Assembly: GCF_023657595.1 (NCBI RefSeq)
Contig: NZ_CP098323.1
Span: 2,504,001 to 2,568,000, forward strand
Reading direction: 5' to 3'
From: Cytobacillus firmus
GTDB lineage: Bacteria; Bacillota; Bacilli; Bacillales; Cytobacillaceae
DNA length: 64,000 nt
The notes beneath the pieces were generated by a model. That model saw only the letters and a list, made by a program, of their open reading frames with translations, had not been told where the DNA came from and ran no database searches. Below, piece after piece: positions 6,722 to 60,172 of this stretch. Numbering within the stretch: position 1 is the stretch's first letter; every line of letters begins with the position of its first letter. Made by a program: the position numbers and the translations under genes.

Positions 6722-7046
6722 GGGTTCGGACTTTGAGCTTGTGATTTTCGCGGTCAGTGTCCGAAGTTGGGCTGGGTTCGGACTCAGATCATGGTTTCTC
6801 TGCTTTTTGTGTCCGAAGTTACACCAGGTTCGGACTTACACTACTGGCTTTCCGACTTCTCTGTCCGAAGTTGACCCGTATTCGGACTCAAATCATGGTT
6901 TCTCTGCTTTCTCTGCCCGAAGTTGCACCGAATTCGGACTCAGATCATGGTTTCTCTGCTTTTTGTGTCCGAAGTTGCGCCAGTTTCGGCCTTACACTTT
7001 AGTTTTTCCAATTTCTCTGTCCGAAGCTGCACCAAATTCGATCTCA
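6722..7046. repeat. Tandem repeat array A1, 52-bp period, TCCGAA/TTCGGA dyads
   Basis: Six CCGAAG cores begin at 6761, 6813, 6865, 6917, 6969 and 7021, exactly 52 bases apart, preceded by a half unit with TTCGGA near 6725. Each intact unit carries the dyad TCCGAA-N11-TTCGGA, then a spacer of two alternating kinds (one with ATCATGGTTTCTCTGC, one starting TTACACT). It fills the gap between convergent genes. Open frames through it exist only because the repeat lacks stops; they have no ribosome sites. The same family recurs near 59.8-60.2 kb. Confidence 0.9.
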
Positions 7047-7075
7047 TACTCTAACTGCCGGAACAGTAATTCCTC

Positions 7076-7861
7076 TTATAAAGCTTTCACCATCCCGCCA
7101 TCGACTAAAATGGAGCTTCCGGTCACGTAGCTGCTGGCATCAGATGCAAGGAAGGTGACGACGTTCGCAAATTCTTCCGGGGTTCCGTATCTGCCCAGCG
7201 GAATTTTGCTTTTGGCTCTTTCAGCAACTTCTTCTTTGGTGATATTCTGCCGGTCTGCGTTATGCTGATCCAGATAATCAACGCGGTCGGTCGCAATTCT
7301 TCCCGGAGCTACTGTATTAATTAAGATATTATAAGCTGCCAATTCCTCTGAGAGTGTTTTGGTCAGTCCGACAATCCCAAGCCGGAATGTATTGGATAAG
7401 AGCAGGCCCGGAATCGGCTGCTTTATGCTTGATGATGCTATATTAATGATCCTGCCGCCATTTTTCTTTAATTCAGGAAGTGCCTCGCGGATCAGCCTGA
7501 CATGGCTTAATAGATTTAGCTGAAACGCTTTTTCCCAGTCTTCATCTGTCAGGTTTTCAAACGTCCCCCCGGGTGGCCCTCCGGCGTTATTGATTAATAT
7601 ATCAATTCCCCCAAGGGTTTCAGCTGTATGCTGAATCAGGTTCTTTATATCCTCAGGGTCCGTAACATCTGCGCGGTAATACTCAACATCGGCATTGAAT
7701 TGGTCACGGAATTCCTTTTGAACGCTCTTTAGTTTTGCTTCGTCCCTGCTTGTTATCATGACCTTGGTGCCTTCTTTTGCAAGCTGTGCTGCAATGGCTT
7801 TTCCGAGGCCCTGGCTTGAAGCCACGACAAGCGCTTTTTTATTTTTCAGTTTTAAATCCAT
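7076..7861 (-). CDS. SDR-family protein, BKR-like, lacking the YxxxK pair
   Basis: This 261-residue Rossmann-fold protein of the short-chain dehydrogenase family starts MDLKLKNKKALVV after AGGAGGAAACG. The cofactor loop is atypical (ASSQGLGKAIA rather than TGxxxGxG), NNAG is present, and the catalytic region reads SNTFRLGIVGLTK, so the usual Tyr and Lys are replaced by Ser and Arg. The C-terminal end YVTGSSILVDGGM is standard. This fits the known subgroup of ketoacyl-reductase-like SDRs without the canonical tetrad, so reductase activity should not be assumed. It is 12 bases downstream of the methyltransferase in the same operon. Confidence 0.85.
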   Translation of the reverse strand: MDLKLKNKKALVVASSQGLGKAIAAQLAKEGTKVMITSRDEAKLKSVQKEFRDQFNADVEYYRADVTDPEDIKNLIQHTAETLGGIDILINNAGGPPGGTFENLTDEDWEKAFQLNLLSHVRLIREALPELKKNGGRIINIASSSIKQPIPGLLLSNTFRLGIVGLTKTLSEELAAYNILINTVAPGRIATDRVDYLDQHNADRQNITKEEVAERAKSKIPLGRYGTPEEFANVVTFLASDASSYVTGSSILVDGGMVKAL

Positions 7862-7873
7862 GATCGTTTCCTC

Positions 7874-8647
7874 CTATTTTTTAACGCAAAGCGCCATCCA
7901 TTCATCCACTTTAAAGGATTGGACCTTGCCTTCATGTAGTTCAATTTGAAAATAATCCGCAGCAGCCTGATCAGCCTGCAGAATATACTCTTCGACTGCC
8001 TTAATCTGTTCTTCACTTTCAGCCGTTCGTCTCACCCAGGAAGGGAATTCGAAGGTTTTCTTCCTGCTCTTTGCGTTTGTTTCATTTAGTCCGGAAGCAG
8101 CAAATAGCTTTCTCCACTCTGCCGTTGACAAACACCGGTAATGGCTGTCATCCCGCATTTTCTCAACTGTGTTCATATAGTCTGCGAGCTCTTTTTCATC
8201 GGGTGATACATTATCAACTAACAGAAATCTTCCCCCTGATTTTAAAACCCTGCCAGCTTCAGCAATGAACTTTTCCGGATGGGGAAAATGGTGTGGCGCG
8301 ATCCGGCACGTGACAGCATCAAAGGACTCATCCAGAAAAGGCAAAGTTTCCGCGTCTGCAACGATATACCAGATATTTTTATAGCTTTCCAGATGGCGTG
8401 CGGTATTCGCCAGCATTTCTTTTGTCAAATCAGCTGCGAAGACCTGGGAAACAAAGGGTGCCAGACTTTTGGCCACATGCCCGCCGCCTGTCGCGATATC
8501 CAGCACCACCCAATCCTTCTGCGGATTCAGGGTTTGAACAAGCTGATGTAATTCTGCCGCATCTCCATGAATTTTGCTTGTCACATATTTTTCTGCGTTT
8601 TTACCGAATGTATTTTGTACCTTTTTTTTTATTTCTTCCTTTTCCAT
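7874..8647 (-). CDS. Class I SAM-dependent methyltransferase
   Basis: This 257-residue methyltransferase has the SAM motif I VLDIATGGGHVAKSLAP near residue 50, an acidic motif II (VFAADLTKEML), and motif-III-like AETLPFLDESFDAVTCRIAPHHF, resembling the UbiE/YcgJ-type (Methyltransf_11) proteins. No membrane or targeting signal is seen. It is first in a two-gene unit with the SDR-like protein; a GGTGGTGATT site precedes the start. The substrate cannot be told from sequence. Confidence 0.85.
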   Translation of the reverse strand: MEKEEIKKKVQNTFGKNAEKYVTSKIHGDAAELHQLVQTLNPQKDWVVLDIATGGGHVAKSLAPFVSQVFAADLTKEMLANTARHLESYKNIWYIVADAETLPFLDESFDAVTCRIAPHHFPHPEKFIAEAGRVLKSGGRFLLVDNVSPDEKELADYMNTVEKMRDDSHYRCLSTAEWRKLFAASGLNETNAKSRKKTFEFPSWVRRTAESEEQIKAVEEYILQADQAAADYFQIELHEGKVQSFKVDEWMALCVKK

Positions 8648-8724
8648 ATGTAATCACCACCATCAAAAATTCACCTATACTATTTAGTTTCTATACAAAT
8701 CCCTATAATCCTGTCAGATTAATA

Positions 8725-8760
8725 GAAAAAGAGCCTGCCACTTGGTGAAATGGCAGGCTG
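8725..8760 (-). terminator. Terminator of the hbd-to-quinone-reductase operon
   Basis: AGCCTGCCA and its complement (8732-8740 with 8751-8759) form a 9-base-pair stem followed by CTTTTTC on the minus strand, 5 bases past the quinone oxidoreductase stop. Confidence 0.88.
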
Positions 8761-8764
8761 CTGT

Positions 8765-9742
8765 TTATCTGGCAGGCACAAGAATTAGCTTCCCTTTTGT
8801 TTGCCTAGACTGCATTCGCTCATGTACTTTGGCAGCGTCCTCAAGAGGATGGACTTCACCAATAGTCAGCTTCAGCTTCCCTTGGGCTGTATAGGATAAT
8901 AATTCCTTCATGCTCGGCTGCAGCAATTCCGGTTTCCTCATTATTTGCGGCAGGAAAAATCCGATGACCGATTGATTCCGCCCCATTAAGGAAGAAGGAT
9001 AAAACCGGCTCTGCTCCCCGCTTGCCACACCATAAATAACAAGGCGGCCAAAGGTGGCAAGGCATTTCAGGGTTTTATTAAAAATTTCGCCGCCTGCCAT
9101 TTCGAGTGCCACATTTACACCTTTTCCGCCTGTTGCTTCGAGTACTTCATTTTCCCAGCCTTCATTTGTATAGTTGACGAGGACATCGGCTCCCATTTCT
9201 TTTGCAAGCTGCAGTTTTTCAGCAGTGCTGGCGGTAGCAATGACAGTCCCGGCCCCGAATAATTTTGCAAGCTGAACGGCAAGTGTTCCCACTCCTCCCG
9301 CAGCTGCATGGACCAGGACGCTTTCACCCGCTTCAAGCCGGCCCATCGTTTTCAAAATATGATAGGCACTCAGTCCTTGCAGGGGCAGTGCCGCAGCAAG
9401 ATTGAAATCCAGTCCTTCCGGCAGCGGAATCAAACCCCTTTCATCGGCTGTGACATACTCTGAGTAGCCTCCTGATTCTATTAGCGTCACCACTCTTGTG
9501 CCAACCGGAATACTCGCCTCTTCACCCGCGGCTGCGACAACACCTGCCACCTCTGCACCGGGAATGAACGGCAGAGGTGTCGGCACAACATATTGCCCTT
9601 CTCTTCTTGCGGTATCGGCATAGTTCACTCCGATCGCATGCACTTCGATTAAAACTTCCCGTCCGGTCGGCTGCGGCCGATCCAGTTCGATTACATCAAG
9701 GACTTCAGGTCCCCCATATTCTTTGAATTGAATGGCTTTCAT
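8765..9742 (-). CDS. Zinc-less quinone oxidoreductase (NADPH:quinone reductase, MDR family)
   Basis: The 325-residue medium-chain reductase has the N-terminal GroES-like domain (MKAIQFKEYGGPEVL...GVNYADTARREGQY) and a Rossmann domain with VLVHAAAGGVGTLAVQLAK near residue 145. The structural zinc cysteines of alcohol dehydrogenases are absent, as in QOR/crotonyl-CoA-reductase-like members. The start at 9742 follows AAGGAGTG; the longer frame overlaps the upstream acyl-CoA dehydrogenase end. As the last gene of a fatty-acid operon it may reduce an enone or enoyl intermediate or act on a quinone; both are inference. Confidence 0.88.
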   Translation of the reverse strand: MKAIQFKEYGGPEVLDVIELDRPQPTGREVLIEVHAIGVNYADTARREGQYVVPTPLPFIPGAEVAGVVAAAGEEASIPVGTRVVTLIESGGYSEYVTADERGLIPLPEGLDFNLAAALPLQGLSAYHILKTMGRLEAGESVLVHAAAGGVGTLAVQLAKLFGAGTVIATASTAEKLQLAKEMGADVLVNYTNEGWENEVLEATGGKGVNVALEMAGGEIFNKTLKCLATFGRLVIYGVASGEQSRFYPSSLMGRNQSVIGFFLPQIMRKPELLQPSMKELLSYTAQGKLKLTIGEVHPLEDAAKVHERMQSRQTKGKLILVPAR

Positions 9743-9767
9743 TTTCAAACACTCCTTTTCTATATTT

Positions 9768-11543
9768 CTAGCAGCAATATTCGCCTTTTTCATACATGAG
9801 CTCAGCTATTCTCCGGTTCCTTGCACTTTCTTTCCCAAAGGAGCTGAACCTGCTGCATTCCCGGATGATTAATCCGATCAGCGCATCCTTTTTCTCATCT
9901 GAAGACAATTCGGACACTAATTGGCGGGATAGCCTTTCAGCTTCCCATATTGCACCTTCCAGAAAAGTCCTGGTCAGGTGAATCTTCAATTCTTCTTTTT
10001 CTTCACCATTTTTCTGAATGGCTTTGTATGTCCGATAAACTGCTGATTCTGCTGCATACAGGGCAATGGCGAGATCCGCAAGCTTCATTAGGGCTTCCTG
10101 TTCATGAACAAGGGTATCGCCAAATGCTTCATAGGCGAGTCCGGCATTCAGCAGGAATAGGTTTCTTATAGTATCAACCGCTGCTCTCTCTTTCTCAAAA
10201 ATCGCCTGCCCGATTGGTGCAGGTTTGCTCAAGCGAACAATCGCTTCCTCCACTCTTGCTGCTAAATCGATTTCACCCTTCAGCGCTTTTCGGAAAAGGT
10301 GAGTAGGAATCAGCAATCTATTAATCTCATTTGTACCTTCAAAAATACGGTTAATGCGGGAATCCCGATACATTTGTTCCACACCGTATTCCTTGATGAA
10401 TCCCGCTCCGCCATGAAGCTGCAGTGCTTCATCTGCCGTATAATCCAGTGTTTCCGAGCCAAACACCTTGCAGATCGCACATTCTGTGGCATATTCGCTC
10501 ATTCTTTTTCCAATAAGTTTTACATCAGTTGATTCATATAAGTCTCCCAATGATTCCTCCAGCAGGCTTGCGGTGCGGTATTGCAGTGATTCAGCGGCGT
10601 AGATTCTTCCTGCCATCTTCGCCGTTTTTTCCTTGGTAGCCGGAAAATCAGCGATCGACTTCCCAAACTGCTTTCTTTCCCCTGTAAATTGGAGTGTTTT
10701 CTTCAAGCCGGTTTTTGCTGCCCCCATGCAGGCTGAACCTAAATTGAAACGGCCCAAATTCAAGACGTTCAAAGCAATGATATGGCCTTTGCCCACTTCC
10801 CCAAGCAGATTTTCTGCTGGCACAGGACAATCCTCAAAAATGACCGATCTGGTTGACGATCCTTTAATGCCCATCTTATTTTCTTCCGGGCCAAGGGATA
10901 ATCCTGGTGTGTCCCGTTCGACGATAAATGCGGTAAAATGCCGGCCGTCCACTTTGGCATATACAATGAATGTATCTGAAAATACAGCATTCGTAATATA
11001 AATTTTCGTGCCATCTAAAATGTAATGGGTCCCATCCTCATTCAAAACGGCGGTAGTCTGGGAGGATAGAGCATCAGATCCTGCGTTCGGCTCTGTCAGG
11101 CAGTAAGCGCCTATGTACTCCCCTGAAGCAAGCTTCGGCAAGTACTTTTCTTTTTGCTCAGGAGTTCCGAAGTAAGTGATCGGCAGGGTTGCAATGCAAG
11201 TATGGTTCGAGTGGGCTACCCCGTAACCGCCTGATGAGGCAATGTTTTCTCCGACGATCCCCTTGCTGATTTTATCCAGGCCAAGGCCGCCATAATTTTC
11301 GGGAATGCTATGGGCAAGCAAGCCCAGTTCGCCCGCCTTCCTAAGTAAATCCGTTACCAGCTCGAATTCCTGGTTTTCGATCCGGTCCTTTTCAGGGTGA
11401 ACCATTTTTTCAGTAAATTGTTTAGCTGTTCTTCCGATTAAGATATGCTCATCTGAAAAATTCTCGGGTGTGAAAAGTGTTTCAGGATTTAGCTTTGTGA
11501 ACAAGAAACTCGCACCGCGATTGGCTGTGTTTACTTTTTCCAT
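9768..11543 (-). CDS. Acyl-CoA dehydrogenase, long FadE/YusJ form
   Basis: This 591-residue FAD-dependent acyl-CoA dehydrogenase has the length of Bacillus FadE (YusJ), about 200 residues longer than the short ACADs owing to a C-terminal helical extension. Visible signatures are YCLTEPNAGSDALSSQTTA (FAD/substrate loop), GIKGSSTRSVIFEDCPVP, GKRMSEYATECAICKVFGSE, QLHGGAGFIKEYGVEQMYRDSRI and FEGTNEINRLLI, which carries the catalytic Glu position. It is fourth in the operon starting with hbd, 33 bases after the kinase gene. It should perform the first step of beta-oxidation; chain-length range is unknown. A second FadE elsewhere in the genome is possible, so no symbol is given. Confidence 0.93.
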   Translation of the reverse strand: MEKVNTANRGASFLFTKLNPETLFTPENFSDEHILIGRTAKQFTEKMVHPEKDRIENQEFELVTDLLRKAGELGLLAHSIPENYGGLGLDKISKGIVGENIASSGGYGVAHSNHTCIATLPITYFGTPEQKEKYLPKLASGEYIGAYCLTEPNAGSDALSSQTTAVLNEDGTHYILDGTKIYITNAVFSDTFIVYAKVDGRHFTAFIVERDTPGLSLGPEENKMGIKGSSTRSVIFEDCPVPAENLLGEVGKGHIIALNVLNLGRFNLGSACMGAAKTGLKKTLQFTGERKQFGKSIADFPATKEKTAKMAGRIYAAESLQYRTASLLEESLGDLYESTDVKLIGKRMSEYATECAICKVFGSETLDYTADEALQLHGGAGFIKEYGVEQMYRDSRINRIFEGTNEINRLLIPTHLFRKALKGEIDLAARVEEAIVRLSKPAPIGQAIFEKERAAVDTIRNLFLLNAGLAYEAFGDTLVHEQEALMKLADLAIALYAAESAVYRTYKAIQKNGEEKEELKIHLTRTFLEGAIWEAERLSRQLVSELSSDEKKDALIGLIIRECSRFSSFGKESARNRRIAELMYEKGEYCC

Positions 11544-11576
11544 TTACGGATTCACTCTCCTCAGCATTTCTTCATC

Positions 11577-12650
11577 TCAGATTTTTTCATCTGCCGCCTG
11601 TACAGCATGTTTCAGAAGCACTTTAACGAATCTATTGAATTGTGAAAACCGCGGATCTGCTGTTTGGCCTTTCTTGTAGCGGTAATAGATTTGCTGGCAA
11701 ATGACGGCCAGCTTAAAATAGGCAAATGTTAAATAAAAATTCATTCTGCTGAGATCACGGCCTGTTTTTCCAGCATAGGCCTCCATAAATTCTCTGCGGG
11801 AGTAAAAGCCATTTAGAACTGTTACCGGGGGTTTTCCTAATCCAAACTTGAGCAGATCGGGATCGTCTCCCTGAATCCAATAGCTCATCGCGGCACCAAG
11901 ATCTGCCAGCGGATCACCTGCCGTTGCCATCTCCCAGTCGAAAAGGCCCGTCATTTCTGTTAAATCCTCATTGAACATTACATTGTTCAGCTTGTAATCA
12001 TAATGGATGACGGATGGCTCAGGGCTAACCGGGATATGATGGGTCATCCACTTTTTCAGCGTATCCGCTTCAGAAACTTCATCTGTCTTTGCCCGCTCAT
12101 ACCGGCCAATCCAGCCATGCACCTGCCTTTTCATAAATCCATCGGGATTGCTGATTTCCGCTAGACCTGTCCTTTTATAGTCAATGGAATGAAGTTCTGC
12201 CAGCTTATCAACCATAATTTGAGACAGTCTTCTGCAAATTTCCTCGTCCCGTTCCATTCCTTCAGGGAATGAGGTATCTAAAACAATTCCATGCCGCCGT
12301 TCCATAATGAAAAATGGTGCTCCTGTGATTTCACTATTATTCGTAAACAGGATCGGCTTCGGGGCTTCTTTGAAAAAGGGGTGTATCTCAGAAATCACCC
12401 TGTATTCCCTCTCCATGTCATGAGCTTTTGGTGCGACAGGTCCAAGCGGAGGCCTGCGCAGCACGGCTTCCCACTCTCCCATTTTCAGCTGATAGGTAAG
12501 ATTGGAGTGCCCAGCATGGAACTGAAGAATCTTAAGCGGTTGATTTGGAAGATTAGCCATCTCGTTCCGCAGGAATTTTTCCAATTCAGCGGTATTCAAT
12601 TGCTCTCCTTTTCTAACGGGAATGGTATCCTGGCTCATTTGCTTCGGCAT
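11577..12650 (-). CDS. APH-family phosphotransferase, ACAD10/11 N-domain-like (putative 4-hydroxyacyl-CoA kinase)
   Basis: The protein has a choline/aminoglycoside-kinase fold of 357 residues: FHAGHSNLTYQL (nucleotide loop), EAVLRRPP (ATP-binding Lys/Arg region), catalytic VIHYDYKLNNVMF around residue 215 and metal-binding GLFDWEMATAGDPLADLG. The set HSNLTY, MEREYRVISEI and GAPFFIMERR matches the kinase domain of mammalian ACAD10/11 and the bacterial LvaA class, which phosphorylate 4-hydroxyacyl-CoA. It lies in an operon with acyl-CoA enzymes rather than antibiotic genes, so drug resistance is unlikely. An ACAD11-like dehydrogenase is encoded 5 kb away under the same operator type. Activity is inferred, not proven. 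Confidence 0.85.
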   Translation of the reverse strand: MPKQMSQDTIPVRKGEQLNTAELEKFLRNEMANLPNQPLKILQFHAGHSNLTYQLKMGEWEAVLRRPPLGPVAPKAHDMEREYRVISEIHPFFKEAPKPILFTNNSEITGAPFFIMERRHGIVLDTSFPEGMERDEEICRRLSQIMVDKLAELHSIDYKRTGLAEISNPDGFMKRQVHGWIGRYERAKTDEVSEADTLKKWMTHHIPVSPEPSVIHYDYKLNNVMFNEDLTEMTGLFDWEMATAGDPLADLGAAMSYWIQGDDPDLLKFGLGKPPVTVLNGFYSRREFMEAYAGKTGRDLSRMNFYLTFAYFKLAVICQQIYYRYKKGQTADPRFSQFNRFVKVLLKHAVQAADEKI

Positions 12651-12679
12651 GTGGTCCTCCTTTTTAAAGGAAAATTAAA

Positions 12680-13081
12680 TTATGTTTCTCTTACATTTTG
12701 GTTTAGACCTTCCCTTAGAAGATCAGGTATAACAGCACTTTCCTGTTTGGCGAAATTAAAATAGACGATTACGGCGCTCCCTTTGGCAATAAGGTTTCCT
12801 GTCTGAGTGCATACAATTTCATGATCGAGCTGAAAGCTTTTGCTGCCAATCCTTGATACCCAGGTTTTCACCGTTAGGATTTGGTTAAAATATCCCTGGC
12901 TTAGAAAGTCGCATTTTGTGGAGGCCAGGATAAAACTCCATTTTTTCACATCCATGCTGTAGCCAAGTGTCTCGAAGTATTTCACCCGTGCTTCTTCAAG
13001 GTAAATAAAATAACTTGTATTGTTGATATGGCCAAGAGCATCAGTTTCGCAAAACCTTACTGTTACCTGCATTTCATGCAT
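12680..13081 (-). CDS. Acyl-CoA thioesterase, 4HBT hot-dog family
   Basis: The 133-residue protein has the 4-hydroxybenzoyl-CoA-thioesterase pattern: VRFCETDALGHINNTSYFIYLEEARVKYF, with the catalytic Asp in ETDALGHINN near residue 14-20. It hydrolyses acyl-CoA esters in the cytosol; YbgC/FadM-type relatives clear acyl-CoA during fatty acid growth. It lies 11 bases after hbd and 29 bases before the kinase, inside the operon. Start MHEMQVTV follows a TAAGGGGTG site. The substrate is not identifiable. Confidence 0.9.
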   Translation of the reverse strand: MHEMQVTVRFCETDALGHINNTSYFIYLEEARVKYFETLGYSMDVKKWSFILASTKCDFLSQGYFNQILTVKTWVSRIGSKSFQLDHEIVCTQTGNLIAKGSAVIVYFNFAKQESAVIPDLLREGLNQNVRET

Positions 13082-13092
13082 GATGGCACCCC

Positions 13093-14031: not shown

Positions 14032-14181
14032 TCTCAGGTTTTTCAAGAATTCGCTGATAAAATTTAAATTTCGCCGATATATTTAAAAATTCGCTGATAA
14101 ATATTAAATTTTCGCCGATTTATTTAAAAATTCGCTGATAAATATTAAATTTTCGCCGATAAATTGAAAAACTCACCAATA
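14032..14181. repeat. Tandem repeat array C, 20-21 bp period, TCGCYGAT cores
   Basis: TCGCTGAT and TCGCCGAT alternate at 14051, 14071, 14091, 14112, 14132 and 14153, with degenerate ends at 14032 and 14173. The spacers are almost only A and T (ATTTAAA, ATATTAAA). The array occupies the gap between tetR and hbd, which are co-oriented. No rho-independent terminator is seen after tetR, so this A+T-rich array separates the two operons. Confidence 0.85.
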
Positions 14182-14186
14182 TCTAG

Positions 14187-24049: not shown

Positions 24050-24288
24050 AAAAAAAAACCAGCTCCCATTGGGAACTGGTTTGATTACAGTATGTACAGC
24101 CGCCATTGCCGTAAATAATGATAAGAAAGTTTTAAACCACCACTCCTCAAAGTGGGTGTTCGCAGAAACATTCCTGCCTGTCCTCCTTGTCTTATAGACG
24201 GAGGCCTGTCATTCCCGTTTCAATGTAAAACTCCCTATTACAGCTTAAAGGTTAAAACTTTATTATGATTACGCACAATGCAGCTTGT
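24050..24288 (-). ncRNA. ssrS: 6S-like regulatory RNA, copy 1
   Basis: On the minus strand a transcript of about 239 bases folds as a long closing helix (5' AAAGUUUUAACC with 3' GGUUUAAAACUUU, extended outward by AUUG/CAAU-type pairs), a central bubble, a terminal stem CCUCCGUCU-AUA-AGACAAGGAGG, and a small hairpin CACCCACU/AGUGGUG on the 3' side of the bubble. It ends with a terminator AACCAGUUCCCAAUGGGAGCUGGUU plus Us (two arms around a 4-base loop). This is the fold of 6S RNA, the RNA polymerase decoy. A near-identical copy lies at 62873-63110. The name is by structure, not by a search. Confidence 0.6.
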
Positions 24289-24391
24289 ATTTATATATTA
24301 ACGGATACGGAGTAATTTTTCAATGGGCATGCTCAGGTTTTTTATTGTATGAAAAGGGGTTAAGAAATTATTGTTGAACGAAGGATATTAA

Positions 24392-24808: not shown

Positions 24809-24887
24809 AAAGCAGATGTGTATTTTAGTTTTGTTTCTGCTTAGTGCTGTATTAATCCTTTTGGGGAGCGTTTTTTCCGGGTCTTAC

Positions 24888-25215
24888 TCTTTTTGGGCTT
24901 CATGACTGCTCTAGGACGACTATTTTCTCCTCGCCTCTCCTATTTTGGACGTCATAACTCCTCTATGGCGACCGTTTCCTACGCAGCGCTCCTATTTTAG
25001 GCGTCATGATTGCTCTATGATGTCCATTTTGTATTCGTCTTCCTAATTTGGGCGTCATGAACCCTCTGTAGCGACCATTTTATCTGCGTCTCTCCTATTT
25101 TGGACGTCATAATCTCTCTAGAACGACCATTTCCTCCTTGCCTCTCCTATATTGGTCGACATAAATCCTCTATAGCGACCGTTTTCTCCTCACTCTTCAA
25201 TAGTGTTCTACATAA
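24888..25215. repeat. Tandem repeat array D, 51-52 bp period, GACGTCAT cores
   Basis: The CAT of the core repeats at 24901, 24953, 25005, 25056, 25108, 25160 and 25211, giving spacings of 52, 52, 51, 52, 52 and 51. A full unit reads CTCCTATTTTGGACGTCAT, then about 10 bases, then CTATGGCGACCGTTTT-like sequence. TGGACGTCATA and TATGGCGACCA form an imperfect dyad within each unit. The sequence is unrelated to array A although the period is the same. It lies between the lipoprotein and fdhF and carries no gene. Confidence 0.9.
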
Positions 25216-50912: not shown

Positions 50913-50948
50913 AAAAACCGCTCAGGTATGATGGCCTGAGCGGTTTTT
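50913..50948 (+). terminator. Terminator of the bce operon
   Basis: AAAAACCGCTCAGG and CCTGAGCGGTTTTT form a perfect stem around an 8-base loop. Confidence 0.92.
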
Positions 50949-50989
50949 ATGTGTTGGAGTTTGGCTTCGTTATCGATTGGCAGAGGCTA

Positions 50990-51201
50990 TTTGCGGGTTT
51001 TCTGCGTCTATTTGCAAGTTTTCCTAGTTTATTTGCAAATTACAGCATTTAGTTGCAAAATGGTCTCTGCTTGTTTTTAGAATTTCTTTTTATTTGCAGT
51101 CTTCCCATTCTATTTGCAAGTTTTCCATTCTATTTGCAGGTTTGCCCAGGCTGTTTGCAAATTATCTTATTTATTTGCAATTTCTTCATATCTATTTGCA
51201 A
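50990..51201. repeat. Tandem repeat array B, 20-21 bp period, TTTGCAA cores
   Basis: TTTGC begins at 50990, 51011, 51032, 51052 (GTTGC), 51093, 51113, 51133, 51154, 51174 and 51195, so spacings are 20-21 except one double step of 41. The cores are mostly ATTTGCAA followed by TTTTCC or ATT. The array fills the gap between convergent bceB and spo0E-like genes, and its last unit forms the final codons and stop of the Spo0E-like gene. Confidence 0.9.
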
Positions 51202-51374
51202 ATAACCTCATAAGGGTCCAATTTTTTAGCCTCTCGTTTCAATCGCTGTGATTCAACAATTAACTTATCCAGTTCCTGGCTTAATTTCAAAGTATCTACA
51301 TCAGTTAGCCCCTTAGAATATATGCTTTGAATCATTGCCTGCCTGGTCAGTTCAATCGCCTTTGTTAAATCCAT
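51192..51374 (-). CDS. Spo0E-family aspartyl-phosphate phosphatase, 60 aa
   Basis: The small two-helix protein has the Spo0E signature SQELDKLIVESQRL, preceded by a first helix (AIELTRQAMIQSIYSKGL). Spo0E-like proteins dephosphorylate Spo0A~P and delay sporulation. The start lies 4 bases after the stop of the SIS gene with a GAAGGA site in its end, so it is co-transcribed with nagB. The last residues (ICK) come from the 20-bp repeat array. The precise target among Spo0A-like regulators is not proven. Confidence 0.88.
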   Translation of the reverse strand: MDLTKAIELTRQAMIQSIYSKGLTDVDTLKLSQELDKLIVESQRLKREAKKLDPYEVICK

Positions 51375-52871: not shown

Positions 52872-52960
52872 GAGTTCCTCCCTGCAATAAGCTGATTAAG
52901 TATATATTTGCACTATAGAAGGCAAAATATTGGAATAAAATAAACCCATTTATACTTCAT

Positions 52961-52994: not shown

Positions 52995-53051
52995 ATTTAG
53001 TCTCTGTTAAACCTAATTTTTAAAAAGCATATAAATTTTTTCTTTTAAAAA

Positions 53052-53086
53052 TGGTATAGACAACTATATTTATATTTTGGTATGAT
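53052..53086 (+). promoter_or_regulatory. nagP promoter overlapped by NagR (dre) operator
   Basis: TGGTATAGACAACTATA (53052-53068) contains TAGACA (53057-53062) as the -35; TATGAT (53081-53086) with a TGG extension lies 18 bases on. The TGGTATAGACAAC type of site is that of NagR/YvoA. Confidence 0.8.
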
Positions 53087-53144
53087 TACGACAGTTTAGT
53101 AAAACGCTTTCTTACTCATTTATTTTTATTAAGGAGAGATCAAT

Positions 53145-54521
53145 ATGTTAGGATTCCTACAGAGAATTGGTAAGGCATTAATGCTTCCGATTGCCGTCCT
53201 GCCTGCCGCTGGTCTATTGCTTCGCTTTGGACAGGATGATTTATTGGGTATTCCGTTCATCGCGAATGCCGGCAATGCTATTTTCGCGAACCTGGCACTT
53301 ATTTTTGCCATTGGGGTTGCGATGGGATTTGCGAAGGATAATAATGGGGCTGCTGCCCTTTCCGGCGCCATCGGTTTTCTGGTGCTGACCGAGGGTGCAA
53401 TTGCCATCGATGAAAATATAAATATGGGAGTACTGGGCGGAATTATTGCCGGTATTATTGCTGGTTTATTGTATAACCGCTTCCATGATATTAAGCTTCC
53501 GGACTGGCTCGGATTCTTTAGCGGACGACGCTTCGTTCCGATTATCACTTCCGTCACTATGATTCTTCTGGCTGCAATTGCTGGTTTTGCCTGGCCTCCT
53601 ATCCAGGGCGCAATCGATGCACTGGGCAATTGGATTATTGGTCTTGGCGCTTTAGGTTCAGGACTATTCGGCTTTATGAACCGTCTTTTAATACCTTTGG
53701 GTCTGCACCATGTATTGAACAGTTTATTCTGGTTCCAGTTCGGCGAATTTGAAGGAGTTAATGGAGATATTGCCCGCTTCTTTGCAGGAGATCCCTCAGC
53801 AGGAGCTTACATGACTGGATTCTTCCCTGTGATGATGTTCGGTCTGCCGGCTGCAGCTTTTGCGATCATTGCAACTGCTAAGCCTGAAAAAAGAAAAGCG
53901 GTATCCGGAATGTTCATCGGTCTTGCGCTGACTTCATTCCTGACTGGTATTACAGAGCCGATCGAGTTCTCCTTTATGTTCATCGCACCTCTTTTATATG
54001 GAGTGCATGCCATCTTAACCGGGGTTTCCATGTGGGTAACATCCTTACTGGGCATACGAGATGGCTTCACATTCTCAGCAGGCGCACTCGATTTTGCACT
54101 GAACTTTAATATCGCTGAAAAGCCGCTGCTGCTGTTGGGAATTGGCGTCATCTACGCTATTCTGTACTTCGTTATCTTCTATGCACTAATTAAAGCATTA
54201 GACCTGAAAACGCCAGGCCGTGAAGAGGACGAAGATATCGTGGAAGATGAAGATGAACCAGTCTCAACAGGCAACAGCAAGTATGAAGTTATGGCAAGCC
54301 ATTTTATTAAAGATATTGGCGGTGCTGACAACATTACTTCTATTGATAACTGTGCGACACGCCTGCGCTTAAACATTGCGGATATGGAAAAAGTGAAGGA
54401 AAGCGCACTGAAGGCACATGGTGCTAAAGGAATCATGAAATTAAGCAAAACGAATCTGCAGATCATTGTTGGAACAGACGTTGAGTTTGTTGCAGATGAG
54501 ATGAAGAAAATAAAGAAGTAA
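53145..54521 (+). CDS. nagP: PTS N-acetylglucosamine transporter, EIICB
   Basis: The 458-residue membrane protein has the Glc-family EIIC domain, with MLPIAVLPAAGLLLRFGQ at the start, HHVLNSLFWFQFGEFEG, and GITEPIEFSFMFIAPLLYGVHA (substrate region), then an acidic linker and an EIIB domain with the phospho-Cys in SIDNCATRLRL. GlcNAc-6-phosphate would be delivered to the cytosol. No EIIA domain is present, so a separate EIIA (for example of the glucose PTS) must serve. It is a single gene, divergent from nagB. Confidence 0.94.
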   Translation: MLGFLQRIGKALMLPIAVLPAAGLLLRFGQDDLLGIPFIANAGNAIFANLALIFAIGVAMGFAKDNNGAAALSGAIGFLVLTEGAIAIDENINMGVLGGIIAGIIAGLLYNRFHDIKLPDWLGFFSGRRFVPIITSVTMILLAAIAGFAWPPIQGAIDALGNWIIGLGALGSGLFGFMNRLLIPLGLHHVLNSLFWFQFGEFEGVNGDIARFFAGDPSAGAYMTGFFPVMMFGLPAAAFAIIATAKPEKRKAVSGMFIGLALTSFLTGITEPIEFSFMFIAPLLYGVHAILTGVSMWVTSLLGIRDGFTFSAGALDFALNFNIAEKPLLLLGIGVIYAILYFVIFYALIKALDLKTPGREEDEDIVEDEDEPVSTGNSKYEVMASHFIKDIGGADNITSIDNCATRLRLNIADMEKVKESALKAHGAKGIMKLSKTNLQIIVGTDVEFVADEMKKIKK

Positions 54522-54531
54522 TTGACTAAAA

Positions 54532-54562
54532 AACAGTGTCCCGAGACGGACACTGTTTTTTT
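54532..54562. terminator. Terminator after nagP
   Basis: AACAGTGTCC and GGACACTGTT pair around GAGAC, with TTTTTTT on the plus side and a TTTTTTAG on the minus side, so it may also serve the convergent operon. Confidence 0.9.
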
Positions 54563-55262
54563 AATATATCAGCTTTATATTAGGCGGAAGTTTTGCAGAG
54601 CATAGTATTCCGAGTTCCTGTAAGCGCATTAAATTATAAGAAGACCCCTCCATAAGCAATTGATCTGCAAATGCCGGATGGCACATGACTTCCACTGTTT
54701 CCCCGTCTTCAGCCTTTTCTGCCAGCGTGCTGAAATAGTCTTCCTGAATGCCATCTCCGTAAAAATCGAATAAGCACCTGTCCGTATGGCTTTTGACCCC
54801 TTCAAGCGCAAAATTGCCATTGACTCTGAAGGGGAGACCGTATTTATTGGACAGGCTCTGAACTACTGGGAGAAACTCTTCGCGTGTATGAACGTGATGA
54901 TGGCTATCCAAATGGGAAGGCGTAAGACCAGCCCCGATAAAACGGTCAATTTGTGCAGACCACTCCAGTTCCAATTCTTCAAGAGAGATTCCCTCTAAAT
55001 CCCCCTGAGATCTAAAGTACCCATCTTTATTAGTTAAGGTCACTAAATCTGTTAATAACGGCTTCCCGCTTGTGAGGACTAAATGAACGCCAGTTCGTAA
55101 CCCCGGAAATTGTTTAGCCATAGCCAGGGCCTGCCTGGTTCCGGCCATGTTCATCATCATGGTGGCGGAATTGACAATTCCATATAAATAGCTGTGCAAA
55201 ATTCCATAATTCACGCCGGGACTATATCCAAAATCATCTGCATTGACGATGAGTTTTATCAT
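54561..55262 (-). CDS. chbG: Carbohydrate deacetylase, ChbG/YdjC family
   Basis: The 233-residue protein has the YdjC/ChbG plan: KLIVNADDFGYSPGVNYGI (metal Asp pair), GLRTGVHLVLTSGKPLL (His), HLDSHHHVHTREEFLPVV (further metal His), and EVMCHPAFAD near the end. ChbG removes an acetyl group from chitobiose-6-phosphate so that a GH4 glucosidase can hydrolyse it. Start at 55262 (MIKLIVNA) follows GGAGGCC; ten upstream codons of the open frame are not believed. It is last in the PTS operon, 63 bases after the GH4 gene. Confidence 0.9.
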   Translation of the reverse strand: MIKLIVNADDFGYSPGVNYGILHSYLYGIVNSATMMMNMAGTRQALAMAKQFPGLRTGVHLVLTSGKPLLTDLVTLTNKDGYFRSQGDLEGISLEELELEWSAQIDRFIGAGLTPSHLDSHHHVHTREEFLPVVQSLSNKYGLPFRVNGNFALEGVKSHTDRCLFDFYGDGIQEDYFSTLAEKAEDGETVEVMCHPAFADQLLMEGSSYNLMRLQELGILCSAKLPPNIKLIY

Positions 55263-55325
55263 ATTTAGAGGCCTCCGGTTAAATAGATGCAAGGCAGCCT
55301 GAAAATAATGCTGCCCTGCAAAATT

Positions 55326-56648
55326 TTATTGAAATTGCGGCAAATAGAAACGATGGGCTTCGAGCATTTCATCAAGTATTTTTTTCGCTATCTTGTCGGA
55401 ACTCACCAGAGGATTTATTGTCAGTGCCAGCAGAGCAGTATTATAATCACCAGTCAAGGCCGCTTCTATGGTCACCCTTTCAAAGGATTTAATAGATTGA
55501 ACCAGTCCCCTGACTGAAACTGGAAGTTCTCCGATCGCTAACGGCTTTGGCCCATCCTTCGTTATAATGCAGCTGACTTCCACGGCTGAATCTGACGGAA
55601 GGCCTGCAATAGCACCATTATTCCGGGTGTTAACCGGCTGTATATCCCTTTTATCTGTATATATCGAATGAATGAGTCTGCATGCCGCATCACTATAATA
55701 AGCGCCTCCCCTTTTTTCAAGCTGGGAAGGCTTTTCAGCAAGATCTGGATTCTGATATAACTGAAACAGCTCATCCTCCAGCATTTTAACCACTTCAGCC
55801 CGTGTACCGCCTTCTGAAGCTGCTTTAATTTCTTCTTCCACCATTTCACGGGTCTTATAGTAGTAATTATGGTAAGGACAAGGAAGCACATTTAATGCCT
55901 GCAGGAATTCCGGTTCCCATCCCATCGCATGGATGTTCTTCATTGTGATTGATTTTTCTTTGTCTGTAAGCTTTTTCAGCAGCTCTTCCTTGACGCTCAC
56001 TCCATCGACATAGACATCAAGTCCATAGACAAGGTGATTGAGTCCGGCAAAATCAATCCTTACTCTGCTGTGGTCCACATTCATTAACTGTGCTGCCCCC
56101 ATCTCCATTCCAATCGGCACATTGCATAAACCAACCACTTTTTTGATGCTGCTATATCGCAAGACTGCTTCTGTAATTATCCCTGCTGGATTGGTAAAAT
56201 TGATGAGCCATGCATTTGGACACAACTCTTCCATTTCACGGCAGATCTCCATAATGACTGGAATGGTTCGGAGGGCCTTGAAAAACCCCCCCGGTCCATT
56301 GGTTTCCTGGCCCAGCACTCCATATTTCAGCGGAATTCTCTCGTCCTTCGCTCTTGCAGCCAAAAGTCCTACACGGAATTGGGTTGTAACAAAGTCTGCA
56401 CCCTTAAGCGCTTTTTTCCTATCCAATGTAAGCTGAATCTCTATGGGAACACCGGCTTTTTCAACCATCCGTTTCGCTAATTGCCCTACAATCTCGAGCT
56501 TATTTCGTCCTTCCTCCACATCCACAAGCCAAATTTCCCTGACAGGCAATTCCTGATGTCTTTTGATAAATCCTTCAATTAATTCAGGTGTATAGCTTGA
56601 ACCTCCGCCGATCACGGCAATCTTTATACTATCTGGTTGCTGTGCCAT
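55326..56648 (-). CDS. Family GH4 6-phospho-beta-glucosidase (ChbF/LicH-like)
   Basis: The 440-residue enzyme uses NAD+ and a divalent metal. The N-terminal Rossmann loop [18 protein letters not shown], the substrate motif [26 protein letters not shown] and metal ligands [10 protein letters not shown] and GLNHLVYG are visible. It hydrolyses phosphorylated disaccharides delivered by the PTS. The pairing with ChbG suggests chitobiose-6-phosphate rather than cellobiose-6-phosphate. It follows the EIIA gene by 13 bases. Confidence 0.92.
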
Positions 56649-56661
56649 TCTGTTACCTCTC

Positions 56662-56976
56662 TTAGTCTAGTTTCTTGTATAGGTCGATGAATTCCTGTGC
56701 CATGTCTTTGACAGTGAGTGCATTCATCAAATGATCCTGGGCATGGACAAGAATGATGGGCAGATCGAATTGAGCTCCGGAAGCTTCGCCCTGAATTAAC
56801 TCCGTTTGATGTCTGTGTGCCAGCACAAATTCCTCCTCGGCTTCCCGGATTTTAGCTTCCGCCGCATCGAACTTGCCTGCCTTTGCTTCCCGGATGGATT
56901 CCATAGCGAGACTTCTGGCATTCCCGCTGTGCAAAATAAGCTGAAATGAAATTTGATAAAGCTTTTCTTTCTCCAT
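56662..56976 (-). CDS. PTS lactose/cellobiose-family EIIA
   Basis: The 104-residue helical phosphocarrier begins with QISFQLILHSGNARSLAMESIREAKAG and has the active His in IILVHAQDHLMNAL near residue 75-80. It transfers phosphate to the EIIB of the operon. It sits between EIIC and GH4, with 12-13 base gaps. Confidence 0.93.
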   Translation of the reverse strand: MEKEKLYQISFQLILHSGNARSLAMESIREAKAGKFDAAEAKIREAEEEFVLAHRHQTELIQGEASGAQFDLPIILVHAQDHLMNALTVKDMAQEFIDLYKKLD

Positions 56977-56988
56977 TCTTTAACCCGC

Positions 56989-58326
56989 CTAACCTTGAAT
57001 TGTTGGTGTTTGTTCCGGCTGCACCTGCTTCAGTTTCTTTTCATCCATTTTCCCTGTTATATAGACAAATGGCAGGTAAATGACAATGGAAATGGCTAAA
57101 TTCACAAGTGCCAGCACTGCACCGGAGATATGTCCTCCTGTTGCAAGATAGCCGCCAATTCCTGCAGGCGTCACCCAAGGGATGCTTGCCACAACCACTG
57201 GATAAACAAGGCCCCATTTAATAGCCAGATACGCCACTGCCGTCATGATGACTGGTGCTGAAATAAACGGAATCAGCCAGATTGGATTTAACACAATTGG
57301 AAGCCCGAATAATAATGGTTCATTGATTTGAAAAATACCAGGCGGCGTTCCTAATGCAAGCAGCTGCTTATGCCGCTTACGTCCTGCAATAAACATGGAA
57401 ATGATAAGTCCGAGAGTTGCTCCTGAGCCGCCCAGATATACGAAGGCATCCAGAAATGGCCCTGCGAGAATTGCATACTTATCAAGATCCGTCACTCCCT
57501 GAGCATATAAATCTGTATTTTTGGTTCCGAGAGATGTAAATAAAGGCGTTGTAACACCCCCAAGAATATTTGGTCCATGAAGGCCAACCGACCAAAAACC
57601 ATGGACCAGAAAGACTATAAGGATCGCAAATGGCAGTGAATCGGCAGCATTTGTCAAAGGTGCTACAAGGGTTGTATTCAGCCAGTCATTCAAAAATTCA
57701 CCATTTGTCATTTTTCTGAACAGAAGGCCTGCCACTCCAAATAGGAAAATCGTCAGCATGCCCGGCACCAGTTTGGCAAAAGCCCCTGCAACGGCTGGTG
57801 GAACTCCGTCCGGCAGTTTGATAATGAAGGCTTTTACCCTGGTCAAACGGATAAATAATTCGGTCGCAAGAAGTGCCACTACAATTCCTGTAAATAAAGC
57901 CGTTGCATTAAAGTATCCATAGCCAATGAAGCCCCAGGCACCTTCCGTATCCGGGACCTGGCCTACTTGAGGGATTAAGAGGAAGAAGCAGGCTGCGGCA
58001 ACCAGCATCGCCTCGAATCCATCATCCCCATACGATTTGGCAAGCCTGTGGGATATGCCAAATACAGCGAATATGGTTAAGAAGGCAAAGGTGCCCCACC
58101 AGATATCTCCGCCAAGTGTTTTCCAGGATTCGCCGAAAATACTTTCCATGAGTCTGCCGTACGGCTTAATGATTTCCCCCAAATTATTAAATAGAACAGC
58201 AAACGATCCCACCATTGTGATGGCGATCATACCGATCAAGGCATCCCGGATAGCAAGCAAATGCCTGTTATTGCCGAATTTCACAGCATAAGGCATGATA
58301 TATTTCTCAATAAACGTCATCATCAC
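56989..58326 (-). CDS. PTS cellobiose/chitobiose-family EIIC
   Basis: The 445-residue membrane permease of the Lac/Chb family has about 10 helices, with FIEKYIMPYAVKFGNNRHLLAIRDALIG (N-terminal), LVHGFWSVGLHGPNILGGV, PGIFQINEPLLFGLPIVLNPI (substrate-binding Glu region) and VPWV-like SIPWVTPAGIGGYLATGG. The GTG start overlaps the EIIB stop by one base (TAGTG). It imports a beta-linked disaccharide. Confidence 0.92.
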   Translation of the reverse strand: MMMTFIEKYIMPYAVKFGNNRHLLAIRDALIGMIAITMVGSFAVLFNNLGEIIKPYGRLMESIFGESWKTLGGDIWWGTFAFLTIFAVFGISHRLAKSYGDDGFEAMLVAAACFFLLIPQVGQVPDTEGAWGFIGYGYFNATALFTGIVVALLATELFIRLTRVKAFIIKLPDGVPPAVAGAFAKLVPGMLTIFLFGVAGLLFRKMTNGEFLNDWLNTTLVAPLTNAADSLPFAILIVFLVHGFWSVGLHGPNILGGVTTPLFTSLGTKNTDLYAQGVTDLDKYAILAGPFLDAFVYLGGSGATLGLIISMFIAGRKRHKQLLALGTPPGIFQINEPLLFGLPIVLNPIWLIPFISAPVIMTAVAYLAIKWGLVYPVVVASIPWVTPAGIGGYLATGGHISGAVLALVNLAISIVIYLPFVYITGKMDEKKLKQVQPEQTPTIQG

Positions 58327-58631
58327 TATTCACCCTTTATCAATGAGATAGCCTGCTTTAATACTTCCTCGCCATTACATAAGCCGTAATGCATCGGGTT
58401 TATGGGAGCTACAGGAATTCTGCCTCCTGCCTCCTTCTTTAATTGCTCGGTCATAAACCGAATCTGCGGTCCCAGCAGCAGGACATCTGCCGAATCAATA
58501 TGGCTTTGAACCTCCCCGTTGCCAACAGCCCAGATTTTACAGTCGATCCCCTGGCTTTCAGCGCTAGCTTTCATCTTTGTCACCAGGAGACTTGTAGACA
58601 TTCCAGCCGAACAGCACAACAAAATATTCAT
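58326..58631 (-). CDS. PTS lactose/cellobiose-family EIIB
   Basis: The 101-residue cytosolic phosphotransfer protein begins [20 protein letters not shown], with the phospho-Cys in CCSAGMST, then [11 protein letters not shown]. It is the first gene of the operon IIB-IIC-IIA-GH4-chbG, opposite a GntR regulator, with operator palindromes between the two. Confidence 0.93.
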
Positions 58632-58791
58632 GATTACCCCCCTTTTTTTTCTGTAAGCGATCTCAAAAAAATAAAATAATTGCTTAACTTAATAGTACCA
58701 TCAATAAAACAGATTATTCAGTCAATTTAATACAAAGATATTTCTTTTTTGAAGTCATCACCTCCTTTTAATACCTTATGCTTGAAATTAA

Positions 58792-58848
58792 TTGTAATTA
58801 CAAATATTCTATTTTTCAATACATTTTTAAAATTTGTTATTACAAATT
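58792..58848. promoter_or_regulatory. Two GntR/UTRA-type operators between chb operon and regulator
   Basis: A perfect palindrome TTGTAATTACAA (58792-58803) and a near-perfect AATTTGTTATTACAAATT (58831-58848) share TTGTNATTACAA, spaced about 42 bases centre to centre. A TATAAT box for the regulator lies at 58853-58858. Confidence 0.7.
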
Positions 58849-58917
58849 ATTTTATAATTGATATGACAATATATTCTATGGAATAATAGATAGAAGAACA
58901 GAGTAGGAGGAACGGGA

Positions 58918-59649
58918 ATGAAAGACGGTTTTGCCGAGGAAAGTGCCCTGCACTTAAAGGTTAAAGAAAGCATTCTTGAACTTATCAGAAACGGTGAATA
59001 CAAACCGGATACCAAATTGCCGACAGAAGCGGAGTTTTGTGAAAAATACGGAGTCAGCCGGACGACTATTAGAACAGCACTCCAGCAGCTGAGCATAGAA
59101 GGCCATATTTATCGCCAGCAAGGCAGAGGCACATTTGTATCAAGCAATAAAGTGAAGCAGCGCCTGACCTCTACAGTGGAAAACTTTTCAAAGCAAATGG
59201 CGATGCAGGGAAAGAACCCGCTCATAAAAGTCATAAACCTGGAAGTCATCCCTGCCGACTCCTTCTTAGCAGAAGTCTTTGACCTGTCAGAAGGCGACCC
59301 GGTTAATGTTCTCGAACGAATCAGGTTTGCTGATGAAGAGCCACTTCAATATGAAAAAGCCTTCCTGCCGTGGAAAAAGACCCCCAGCTTGAACCGGGAG
59401 GCCTGTGAAAAATCCTTATACCATTTGCTGCAGAATCAATACAGATTAAAAATCCAAAAGACAGTGGAGCATTTAGAAATAGGGTTCCCTGAAAAAGAAA
59501 TTAGTGAACTGCTAAACATCAAACCTGAAACACCGTGTTTCTCTCTTGAGACCTATGCCCATATTGAAGACGGAAGCTTAATCGAGTATTCCAAAACGAT
59601 GTTCCGCGGGGATTATGCTCATTTTATTATTGAACGGAATTATGAATAA
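58918..59649 (+). CDS. GntR-family (HutC/UTRA) regulator of the chitobiose PTS operon
   Basis: The 243-residue regulator has an N-terminal winged helix (KLPTEAEFCEKYGVSRTTIRTALQQLSIEGHIYRQQGRGTFV, cited as residues 37-78) and a UTRA ligand domain with ERIRFADEEPLQYEKAFLPW and YSKTMFRGDYAHFIIER. UTRA ligands are commonly phosphosugars. It diverges from the PTS operon across two matching palindromes, so it likely represses that operon and itself. AGGAGGAACGGG precedes the start. Confidence 0.9.
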   Translation: MKDGFAEESALHLKVKESILELIRNGEYKPDTKLPTEAEFCEKYGVSRTTIRTALQQLSIEGHIYRQQGRGTFVSSNKVKQRLTSTVENFSKQMAMQGKNPLIKVINLEVIPADSFLAEVFDLSEGDPVNVLERIRFADEEPLQYEKAFLPWKKTPSLNREACEKSLYHLLQNQYRLKIQKTVEHLEIGFPEKEISELLNIKPETPCFSLETYAHIEDGSLIEYSKTMFRGDYAHFIIERNYE

Positions 59650-59751
59650 GGGATTGTTAATGCTAGCTGCTTAGGTTGGGGCTGCACTATGGTGCTGTTA
59701 CCTGGGATTAGGGCTAGGGGGTAGATTTTTGCTTCTTCTGGTTTTTGCAGC

Positions 59752-60172
59752 GGCGGGTTCGGACTCTATGAAGGCGATTTCCTTTTTTGTGTCTGAAGTT
59801 GTCCCGGGTTCGGACTCTAAGAGGGCGTTTTCTCTTTTTAGAGTCCGAAGTTGACCTGGGTTCGGACTCTGCGGGGCCCTTTTCCTTTTTTGTGTCCGAA
59901 GTTGTCCCGGGTTCGGACTCTACGGGCACATTTTTCCTTTTCTGTGTCCGAAGTTGCCCCGGGTTCGGACTCTACGTGTGCGTTTTCCCTTTTCTGTGTC
60001 CGGAGTTGACCTTGGTTCGGACTCTACGTGTGCGTTTTCCCTTTTCTGTGTCCGAAGCTGACCCGGGTTGGGACTCTACGTGTGCGTTTTCCCTTTTCTG
60101 TGTCCGAAGTTGACCTTGGTTCGGACTCTAAGGGGACGATTTCCTTTTCCTGAGTCCAAAGTTGCCCCGGGT
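59752..60172. repeat. Tandem repeat array A2, 52-bp period, TCCGAA/TTCGGA dyads
   Basis: Cores (CCGAAG or variants) begin at 59793, 59845, 59896, 59948, 60000, 60052, 60104 and 60156, so all steps are 52 except one of 51. A typical unit is GTCCGAAGTTGACC then GGGTTCGGACTC, ACGTGTGCG and a TTTTCCCTTTTCTG tail. GTCCGAA and TTCGGAC form a 7-base-pair dyad. It is the same family as array A1, 53 kb away, and again lies between convergent genes. Confidence 0.92.

Follow-up and report, generated by a model that had tools for sequence, protein, structure and literature searches.

A 64,000-nucleotide window of the Cytobacillus firmus chromosome (bases 2,504,001-2,568,000 of the 4.98-Mb single-contig genome) contains five intergenic gaps filled with degenerate tandem arrays whose units measure either 52 bp or 20-21 bp. 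The same two unit lengths recur elsewhere in this genome and in other Bacillales, and in the main 52-bp family the length is held to within 1 bp while the letters diverge strongly. Such constancy would not be expected from neutral insertions and deletions, from which we infer that the spacing is under selection. As a tentative explanation, which we favor without regarding it as probable, the arrays may act at the DNA level, as sites of helically phased bending or wrapping located behind the ends of genes, with DNA gyrase as the first guess for the long class.

Results

Tandem arrays in the window

The five arrays, none of which has an assigned strand, are as follows.

A1, 6722-7053, no strand: 52-bp units with GTCCGAA-N11-TTCGGAC inverted half-sites and a pyrimidine-rich spacer
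C (14 kb), 14048-14181, no strand: 20-21-bp units TTCGCYGATAAAT
D, 24871-25191, no strand: 52-bp units with an imperfect GGnCGTCAT...GnCGACC dyad
B (51 kb), 50983-51203, no strand: 20-21-bp units with TATTTGCA
A2, 59754-60182, no strand: 52-bp units of the A family

The A unit consists of GTCCGAA, 11 bp, TTCGGAC, and then a 27-bp T+C-rich spacer; the general form of this main 52-bp family is GTCnGAA-N11-TTCnGAC followed by the 27-bp spacer, and the 7-bp half-sites are called arms below. The steps from unit to unit were re-measured. Those of A1 (52 five times), A2 (52, 51, 52, 52, 52, 52, 52), and B (21, 21, 20, 41, 20, 20, 21, 20, 21) agreed exactly with the original prediction, which had been made from this DNA alone, and for D (52, 52, 51, 52, 52) and C (20, 20, 21, 20, 21) five of the six claimed steps were recovered, the last copy of each not being called by our rule. 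All five arrays were also detected by Tandem Repeats Finder, and their best scores in the lag scan described below were 112 (A1), 197 (A2), 62 (D), 60 (C), and 30 (B) against a shuffle maximum of 16. That the families are four and unrelated, as had been stated, may be too strong, since the 20-bp families could be variations on a single theme.

The arrays are not CRISPR loci as judged from the repeats alone, because their units repeat degenerately with the spacer included, whereas a CRISPR has identical repeats and unrelated spacers. When Rfam models were run against the window, no array reached a gathering score, and only two 6S RNAs did, both elsewhere. These two 6S RNA genes (RF00013) are on the minus strand at 24093-24289 and 62916-63111 (75.8 and 71.4 bits), less than 39 kb apart.

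Periods of intergenic repeats in the genome

Sixty stretches of 20 kb, one per 80 kb, were combined with the window into a 1.264-Mb sample, in which a simple gene finder left 727 intergenic regions of at least 60 bp. Lags of 9-129 bp were scanned with one Markov shuffle per region as the null, whose maximum of 16 served as the threshold. Significant self-similarity was found in 47 of the 727 regions. The lag was 51-52 in 20 of these, including two with weak scores of 18 and 22, and eight regions fell on a 20.5-bp ladder, seven with lags of 20, 21, or 41 and one, the B gap of the window, with a lag of 122 (about 6 x 20.3). The remaining 19 had low scores (17-34) at scattered lags (11, 12, 39 twice, 44, 50, 55, 64, 73, 78, 81, 85, 86 five times, 100, and 128). 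A chain-of-words test revealed two more 20-bp arrays (L085 and L087; L-numbers denote sampled or fetched stretches, and G-numbers below denote genomes of relatives), giving 30 arrays in total; one array at the end of a stretch (L062:19857-19969) was left out of this number. The shared periods claimed for the window are therefore found beyond it, and a broad spread of periods lacking peaks near 20.5 and 52, which the prediction had named as the outcome that would speak against it, did not appear in the 1.26-Mb sample. Neither these lags nor the periods of the A-family matches given below have the broad spread expected of neutral repeats.

Further families share the two periods, namely a 52-bp family with GTCGTTA-N11-TAACGAC (L064) and families of about 20.5 bp with TTATCCGCACATAAA and ACCGGCC units. 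The scan of Escherichia coli K-12 (five 50-kb pieces, 119 regions) yielded five significant lags (102, 33, 98, 92, and 91), none of them at 52 or 20-21.

Other intergenic repeats were encountered in the course of the scan. Two dispersed elements occur in gaps as pairs about 81-86 bp apart and are not tandem: one with CATCGCACGACCAAA (L047, L048, L070, L080, and L082, all of the own genome), and one with AGAAGGAAAGAACACCTTCTTGC (twice in L031, and in L217 of S. globispora). A convergent gap in L048 (1743-2271) holds a 149-bp tandem repeat of 3.5 copies with 98% matches.

Constancy of spacing in the main 52-bp family

In the own sample, the arm-to-arm distance was 18 bp in 121 of 126 neighboring pairs (pairs within 70 bp), and the distance from the end of one dyad to the start of the next was 34 bp in 127 of 133. 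Arrays of at least four dyads were then counted with the layout left free (centre 9-13 bp, period 30-75 bp). The median period of the resulting 91 arrays, many of which came from loci fetched by the arm-plus-centre pattern in a query that did not fix the period, was 52 in 88, 51 in one, and 53 in two, and 532 of their 567 steps were exactly 52. The spacers, on the other hand, have diverged so far that a greedy filter at less than 60% spacer identity still kept 75 of 164 A-type runs.

The genomes of GTDB species were queried without a set period (GTCCGAA-N11-TTCGGAC with the next GTCCGAA 12-42 bp on, so that periods of 37-67 were allowed). Among the matches listed, which covered at least 117 stretches, the period was 51-53 in 858 of 868 cases (802 at 52) and in 116 of 117 stretches, the exceptional values being 40, 48, 50, 54, and 63. 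About 15 Bacillales genera were named in 80 of the 117 stretch titles among these matches, one of these titles being Chryseobacterium (period 52) and one Verrucomicrobia (63). The former (L164, titled Chryseobacterium sp. ISL-80) is a Bacillales-type 52-bp array under a Bacteroidota name and perhaps comes from a mislabelled assembly. Across 199 genomes of the order, a period of 51-53 gave 2,138 forward matches in 18 genomes from 11 of 98 genera, and a period of 56-58 gave two forward matches in two genomes. The tandem GTCnGAA pattern was present in 16 of 36 genomes of the genus. A phage origin of the A family was rejected; the A pattern, the only one run against viral contigs, gave four stretches with periods of 44, 64, 39, and 44/54, none at 51-53.

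Lag scans of other species indicated that the 52-bp and 20-bp classes are common, yet that other repeats exist too. Among the regions over threshold, S. globispora (400 kb) had four of 20 at lag 52 and six at 20 or 40, G002 (200 kb) had three of five at 52 and one on the 20.5-bp ladder, and Neobacillus drentensis (200 kb) had one of five at 52 and one at 51. G028 had three of six at 20 or 40, a weak one at 51, and none at 52, and G018 had none of five at 52 or 20-21. In G040, which belongs to another family of the order, the seven regions included a strong 21-bp array and one with lags of 104 and 21, besides lags of 22/44, 35/70, 76, 92, and 105. The 21-bp array of G040 (L301:7971-8264) reads TTTGGTGCGATGAACACC and indicates that the two-turn class extends beyond the genus.

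Helical phase inside the unit

When harmonics 1-13 of the AA/TT signal were compared, the fifth (52/5 = 10.4 bp) came out on top in 16 of 17 arrays of the own genome and in 46 of 70 others. Because the arms alone could yield part of a 10.4-bp signal, the phases of spacers and arms were compared. They agreed (cosine >0) in all 18 own runs and in 90 of 98 others; counted by organism, agreement was found in 34 of 36, with a cosine above 0.5 in 27.

The mean profile of the 75 dissimilar spacers had AT maxima at about 29, 38, and 47 and GC maxima at about 32 and 43; the GC steps at 26 and 49 adjoin the fixed flanking letters. After removal of the linear and quadratic trend, the power at 10.4 bp was 3.70, and none of 2,000 circular-shift sets reached it (null maximum 0.58). 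An earlier AA/TT power test that shuffled two-base blocks was abandoned in favor of these measures, as its values are inflated by clumped T runs. Distances between TT runs in the spacers formed no 10-bp peak (6 at 10 bp against 9.0 expected; 17 at 8 bp against 10.9).

In individual arrays, the 10.4-bp harmonic ranked first among 26 in A1 (p=0.004) and D (p=0.010) and second in A2 (p=0.074), in L064 (p=0.18), and in an array of G003 that is D-like by appearance (L240:19139-19571; p=0.066). The internal phase is thus established for family A as a set and likely for D, and is not general. In the own A arrays, for example at 59754-60182, the pyrimidine-rich strand of the spacer lies mostly opposite the leading strand, with exceptions in L066 and L069 and an ambiguous case near the terminus (L059).

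Placement and persistence

In the window, A1 lies between convergent MFS (5465-6649) and SDR (7076-7861) genes, A2 between convergent GntR (58918-59649) and GrpB (60238-60765) genes, and B is bordered by an FtsX-like gene and a SIS-domain locus, also convergent. C is flanked by 3HCDH and TetR genes in tandem on the minus strand, and D is upstream of a molybdopterin oxidoreductase gene in a tandem gap on the plus strand. By eye, terminator-like hairpins precede A1 (about 6655-6693) and B (about 50914-50949). The predominance of convergent gaps that had been pointed out (three of five) is true of the window and did not extend to the sample, where, with the window included, nine of the 30 arrays were in convergent, 20 in tandem, and one in divergent gaps. 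Given the 91 convergent, 476 tandem, and 160 divergent gaps among the 727, convergent gaps were enriched in arrays (p=0.0077) and divergent gaps depleted (p=0.0067), and in 15 of the 20 tandem gaps the array was nearer the upstream stop codon.

Of the four window arrays that were tested at orthologous sites, three recur there: A1, A2, and B. A1 was kept in all six genomes looked at, the own one included (14 have an SDR gene at least 91% identical), although at the site of G010 it amounted to three half-sites only, with steps of 52 and 54. An array with steps of 51-53 bp follows gntR in 10 of the 11 genomes, again with the own one, that have gntR at least 90% identical, a count from which 15 weaker loci were left out; G004 has a 33-bp gap in place of the array. 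In G002 and G019 the A2 array is present although grpB was not found within the 3.7 kb fetched. B was kept in all six genomes looked at, own included (taken from 13 full-length ones with at least 84%); TATTTGCA is mostly retained in these orthologues, and a 20-column gap in G002 and in G019 corresponds to one unit fewer in each.

Covariation of the arms and the dyad

Every A unit is an inverted repeat. Among 121 units of the own genome, the middle bases of the two arms were complementary in 36%, where 45% would be expected; for 659 units from named loci the observed and expected values were 81% and 80%. The corresponding value for 98 units of relatives was raised, 71% against 48%, because some clades changed both arms. 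The fourth base of the arms shifts across entire arrays: the A2 arrays of G002, G023, and G027 carry mostly the pair GTCAGAA/TTCTGAC, and that of G019 carries GTCAGAA/TTCGGAC. Among 38 non-redundant centres, covariation was detected only at the pair next to the arms (p=0.009) and at none of the four inner pairs. The arm pattern is easier to reconcile with a pair of half-sites recognized in DNA than with a hairpin under maintenance.

Discussion

The helically phased bending or wrapping that we favor supposes that, with units of whole helical turns, the half-sites and AT-rich minor grooves would recur on one face of the helix, and that the location behind gene ends would be where positive supercoils gather. 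A DNA-bending or DNA-wrapping protein would most likely hold the arrays. For the long class, one 52-bp unit would match one wrap around a GyrA C-terminal domain (CTD), and the phased AT and GC over 52 bp, the tandem order, and the position behind genes fit a gyrase-type wrapping platform. The arrays may then have a topological role and be the Bacillaceae counterpart of the E. coli bacterial interspersed mosaic elements of type 2 (BIME-2). Their copy number would grow and shrink in whole units by recombination or slippage, and selection would remove changes of spacing. A broader proposal, which we put forward just as guardedly, is that the arrays belong to a general non-coding class of Bacillaceae, tandem and placed behind genes, that is defined by helical geometry rather than sequence and serves as chromosome-wide wrapping platforms, through a set of architectural proteins not yet described or through gyrase used in a new way. 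In such a class, which we consider equally short of probable, units would span five turns (52 bp) or two turns (20-21 bp), and the half-sites would drift together genome-wide while the phase is held within 1 bp.

The main rival is a site-specific protein of Bacillaceae that would recognize the inverted half-sites, 7-bp arms spaced 18 bp apart, and assemble regularly along the array in the manner of plasmid centromere or iteron proteins, with the AT phase as a by-product or bending aid and a second protein or a relative reading the 20-bp class. It takes this place because no other letters are conserved as well as the arms, which recur in about 15 genera (at least 117 stretches) while the 11-bp centres and spacers differ, though the query itself contained the arms. 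The array-wide change of the fourth base at the A2 sites of G002, G019, G023, and G027 is in keeping with such a protein, as are the other 52-bp families that, by eye, have a similar dyad layout with other arms. We nevertheless regard it as unlikely, if possible, because several families in one genome would require several proteins and the AT/GC phase common to dissimilar spacers would go unexplained; no candidate protein turned up, no search for one having been made.

Neutral or selfish satellites, which would expand by slippage and unequal crossing-over, inherit the period of a founding unit, and have no function, would account for variants common to the units of one array and absent from other arrays, for the wide variation in unit number, and for the gains and losses seen at the 14-kb array and in the A2 gap of G004. 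This account is quite improbable in view of the same two periods in families of different sequence, the period of 51-53 and the shared phase among spacers less than 60% identical, the persistence of three of four tested arrays at orthologous sites, the general avoidance of divergent gaps, and the lack of the A pattern at 51-53 in viral contigs. Still less probable are RNA hairpins in transcribed 3' regions, blocking exonucleases or binding a regulator. They would suit the inverted repeats, the folding of the A2 stretch, the covarying pair next to the arms, and the raised complementarity in relatives, but the middle base is uncompensated in the own genome and the named loci, the four inner pairs do not covary, the 20-bp units lack such a dyad by eye, and RNA leaves the fixed 52-bp step unexplained.

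Several results weigh against helically phased wrapping. As noted for the RNA account, the A2 stretch folds as RNA better than 200 shuffles (z -3.54), and the conserved half-sites argue for a reading of sequence, which to our knowledge is not a habit of gyrase. Among the periods tried, the power of the spacer profile was highest at 9.5 bp and not 10.4, the power being broad because the spacer is short. Single spacers were mostly not significant: none of the 18 own runs and 29 of the 98 others gave p<=0.1 in the shift test, which is weak within single spacers. The 10.4-bp harmonic ranked only fifth and sixth in two S. globispora arrays, twelfth in one of N. drentensis, and sixth in a 51-bp array. 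Terminators were not clearly commoner before arrays (20 of 36) than in controls (146 of 338). Genes facing arrays had no raised codon bias (median 0.564 against 0.580, p=0.085); a supercoil sink at highly expressed genes was rejected on this ground, and a transcription-independent version of the wrapping explanation is favored. One 52-bp array of G002 (L313) sits in a divergent gap. Of the two relatives compared for C, G002 lacks the array in its orthologous gap and G011 has a single unit-like copy there, and 20 of the 36 genus genomes had no match to the A pattern. In the own genome, 20 consecutive sampled stretches (L039-L058, about 0.68-2.22 Mb, right replichore) were devoid of 52-bp and 20-bp arrays in the intergenic lag scan, and the matches listed by two pattern searches included none at 0.837-2.392 Mb in one and 0.632-2.291 Mb in the other. 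The original view that helical phase is kept rather than sequence is supported for the main family, where 858 of 868 periods are 51-53 with spacers less than 60% identical and the phases of spacer and arms agree in 34 of 36 organisms; it does not extend to those 52-bp families that lack the internal 10.4-bp phase or to the 14-kb array, which is not retained in the two relatives.

Tandem sites at intervals close to an integral number of helical turns, along which one protein lines up, are familiar from plasmid centromeres and iterons (sopC of F, parC of pSK41, and RepA iterons), which occupy one or a few loci per plasmid; here, by contrast, 30 arrays of several sequence families occur in a quarter of a chromosome. 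The repetitive extragenic palindromic (REP) sequences and BIMEs are intergenic and mostly behind genes, and are defined by a REP consensus palindrome in mosaic with other motifs. We know of no BIME whose step is fixed at 52 or 20 bp. The 30 arrays are likewise intergenic, mostly behind genes, and rare in divergent gaps; G002 offers one exception (L313). Unlike BIMEs, they consist of GTCnGAA-N11-TTCnGAC or other dyads at fixed steps and, judged without a REP profile, have no REP consensus or mosaic; four REP-like gaps of E. coli gave lags of 91, 92, 98, and 102, with sequence unrelated by eye. BIME-2 is thus the nearest known kind, although the arrays fall outside its sequence definition. The BIME-2 and REP elements are intergenic, palindromic, repeated, and multi-copy (PMC6379681), as are the arrays. 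Gyrase cleavage sites are reported to be concentrated behind busy operons and within BIME-2; the latter act as strong gyrase sites independent of transcription and have a raised motif score (PMC6379681).

The extended gyrase motif of E. coli obtained by Topo-Seq is described there as a 10.75-bp variation in GC in two flanking 47-bp regions, and 35-52 bp are thought to wrap one GyrA CTD (PMC6379681). The arrays resemble it in that the stated CTD wrap covers one array unit and, for family A as a set and likely for D, in that AT and GC alternate with the helix over tens of bp; the motif itself is degenerate, centred on a cleavage core, and of 10.75-bp period (PMC6379681), whereas the arrays are tandem, with fixed half-sites and a unit that gives 10.4 bp. 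Alternation of AT and GC over at least 40 bp was seen in family A as a set and in D of the window, with A2 alone ranking second and others second to twelfth. The TAACTGA repeats of marine Beggiatoaceae are also many short intergenic sets of direct repeats, but, according to PMC4679880, their units are of 7 bp, lie mostly just upstream of start codons, and have a proposed role in translation. The same source mentions that sets shared by two Cyanothece strains differ by whole-unit insertions and deletions (PMC4679880). The open-licence literature searched yielded no account of helically phased arrays of 52 or 20 bp in Bacillaceae.

If phase rather than sequence is selected, the arrays would offer a natural test of how gene ends are marked, how supercoils are absorbed, and how the chromosome is folded, with loci numbering in the tens in each genome (30 here in one quarter, five of them in the window), many species, and natural variants in a single trait. 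What the families share is geometry, which similarity-based repeat scans can overlook. The arrays would then help to identify an architectural DNA-binding protein or a class of strong gyrase sites in Gram-positive bacteria.

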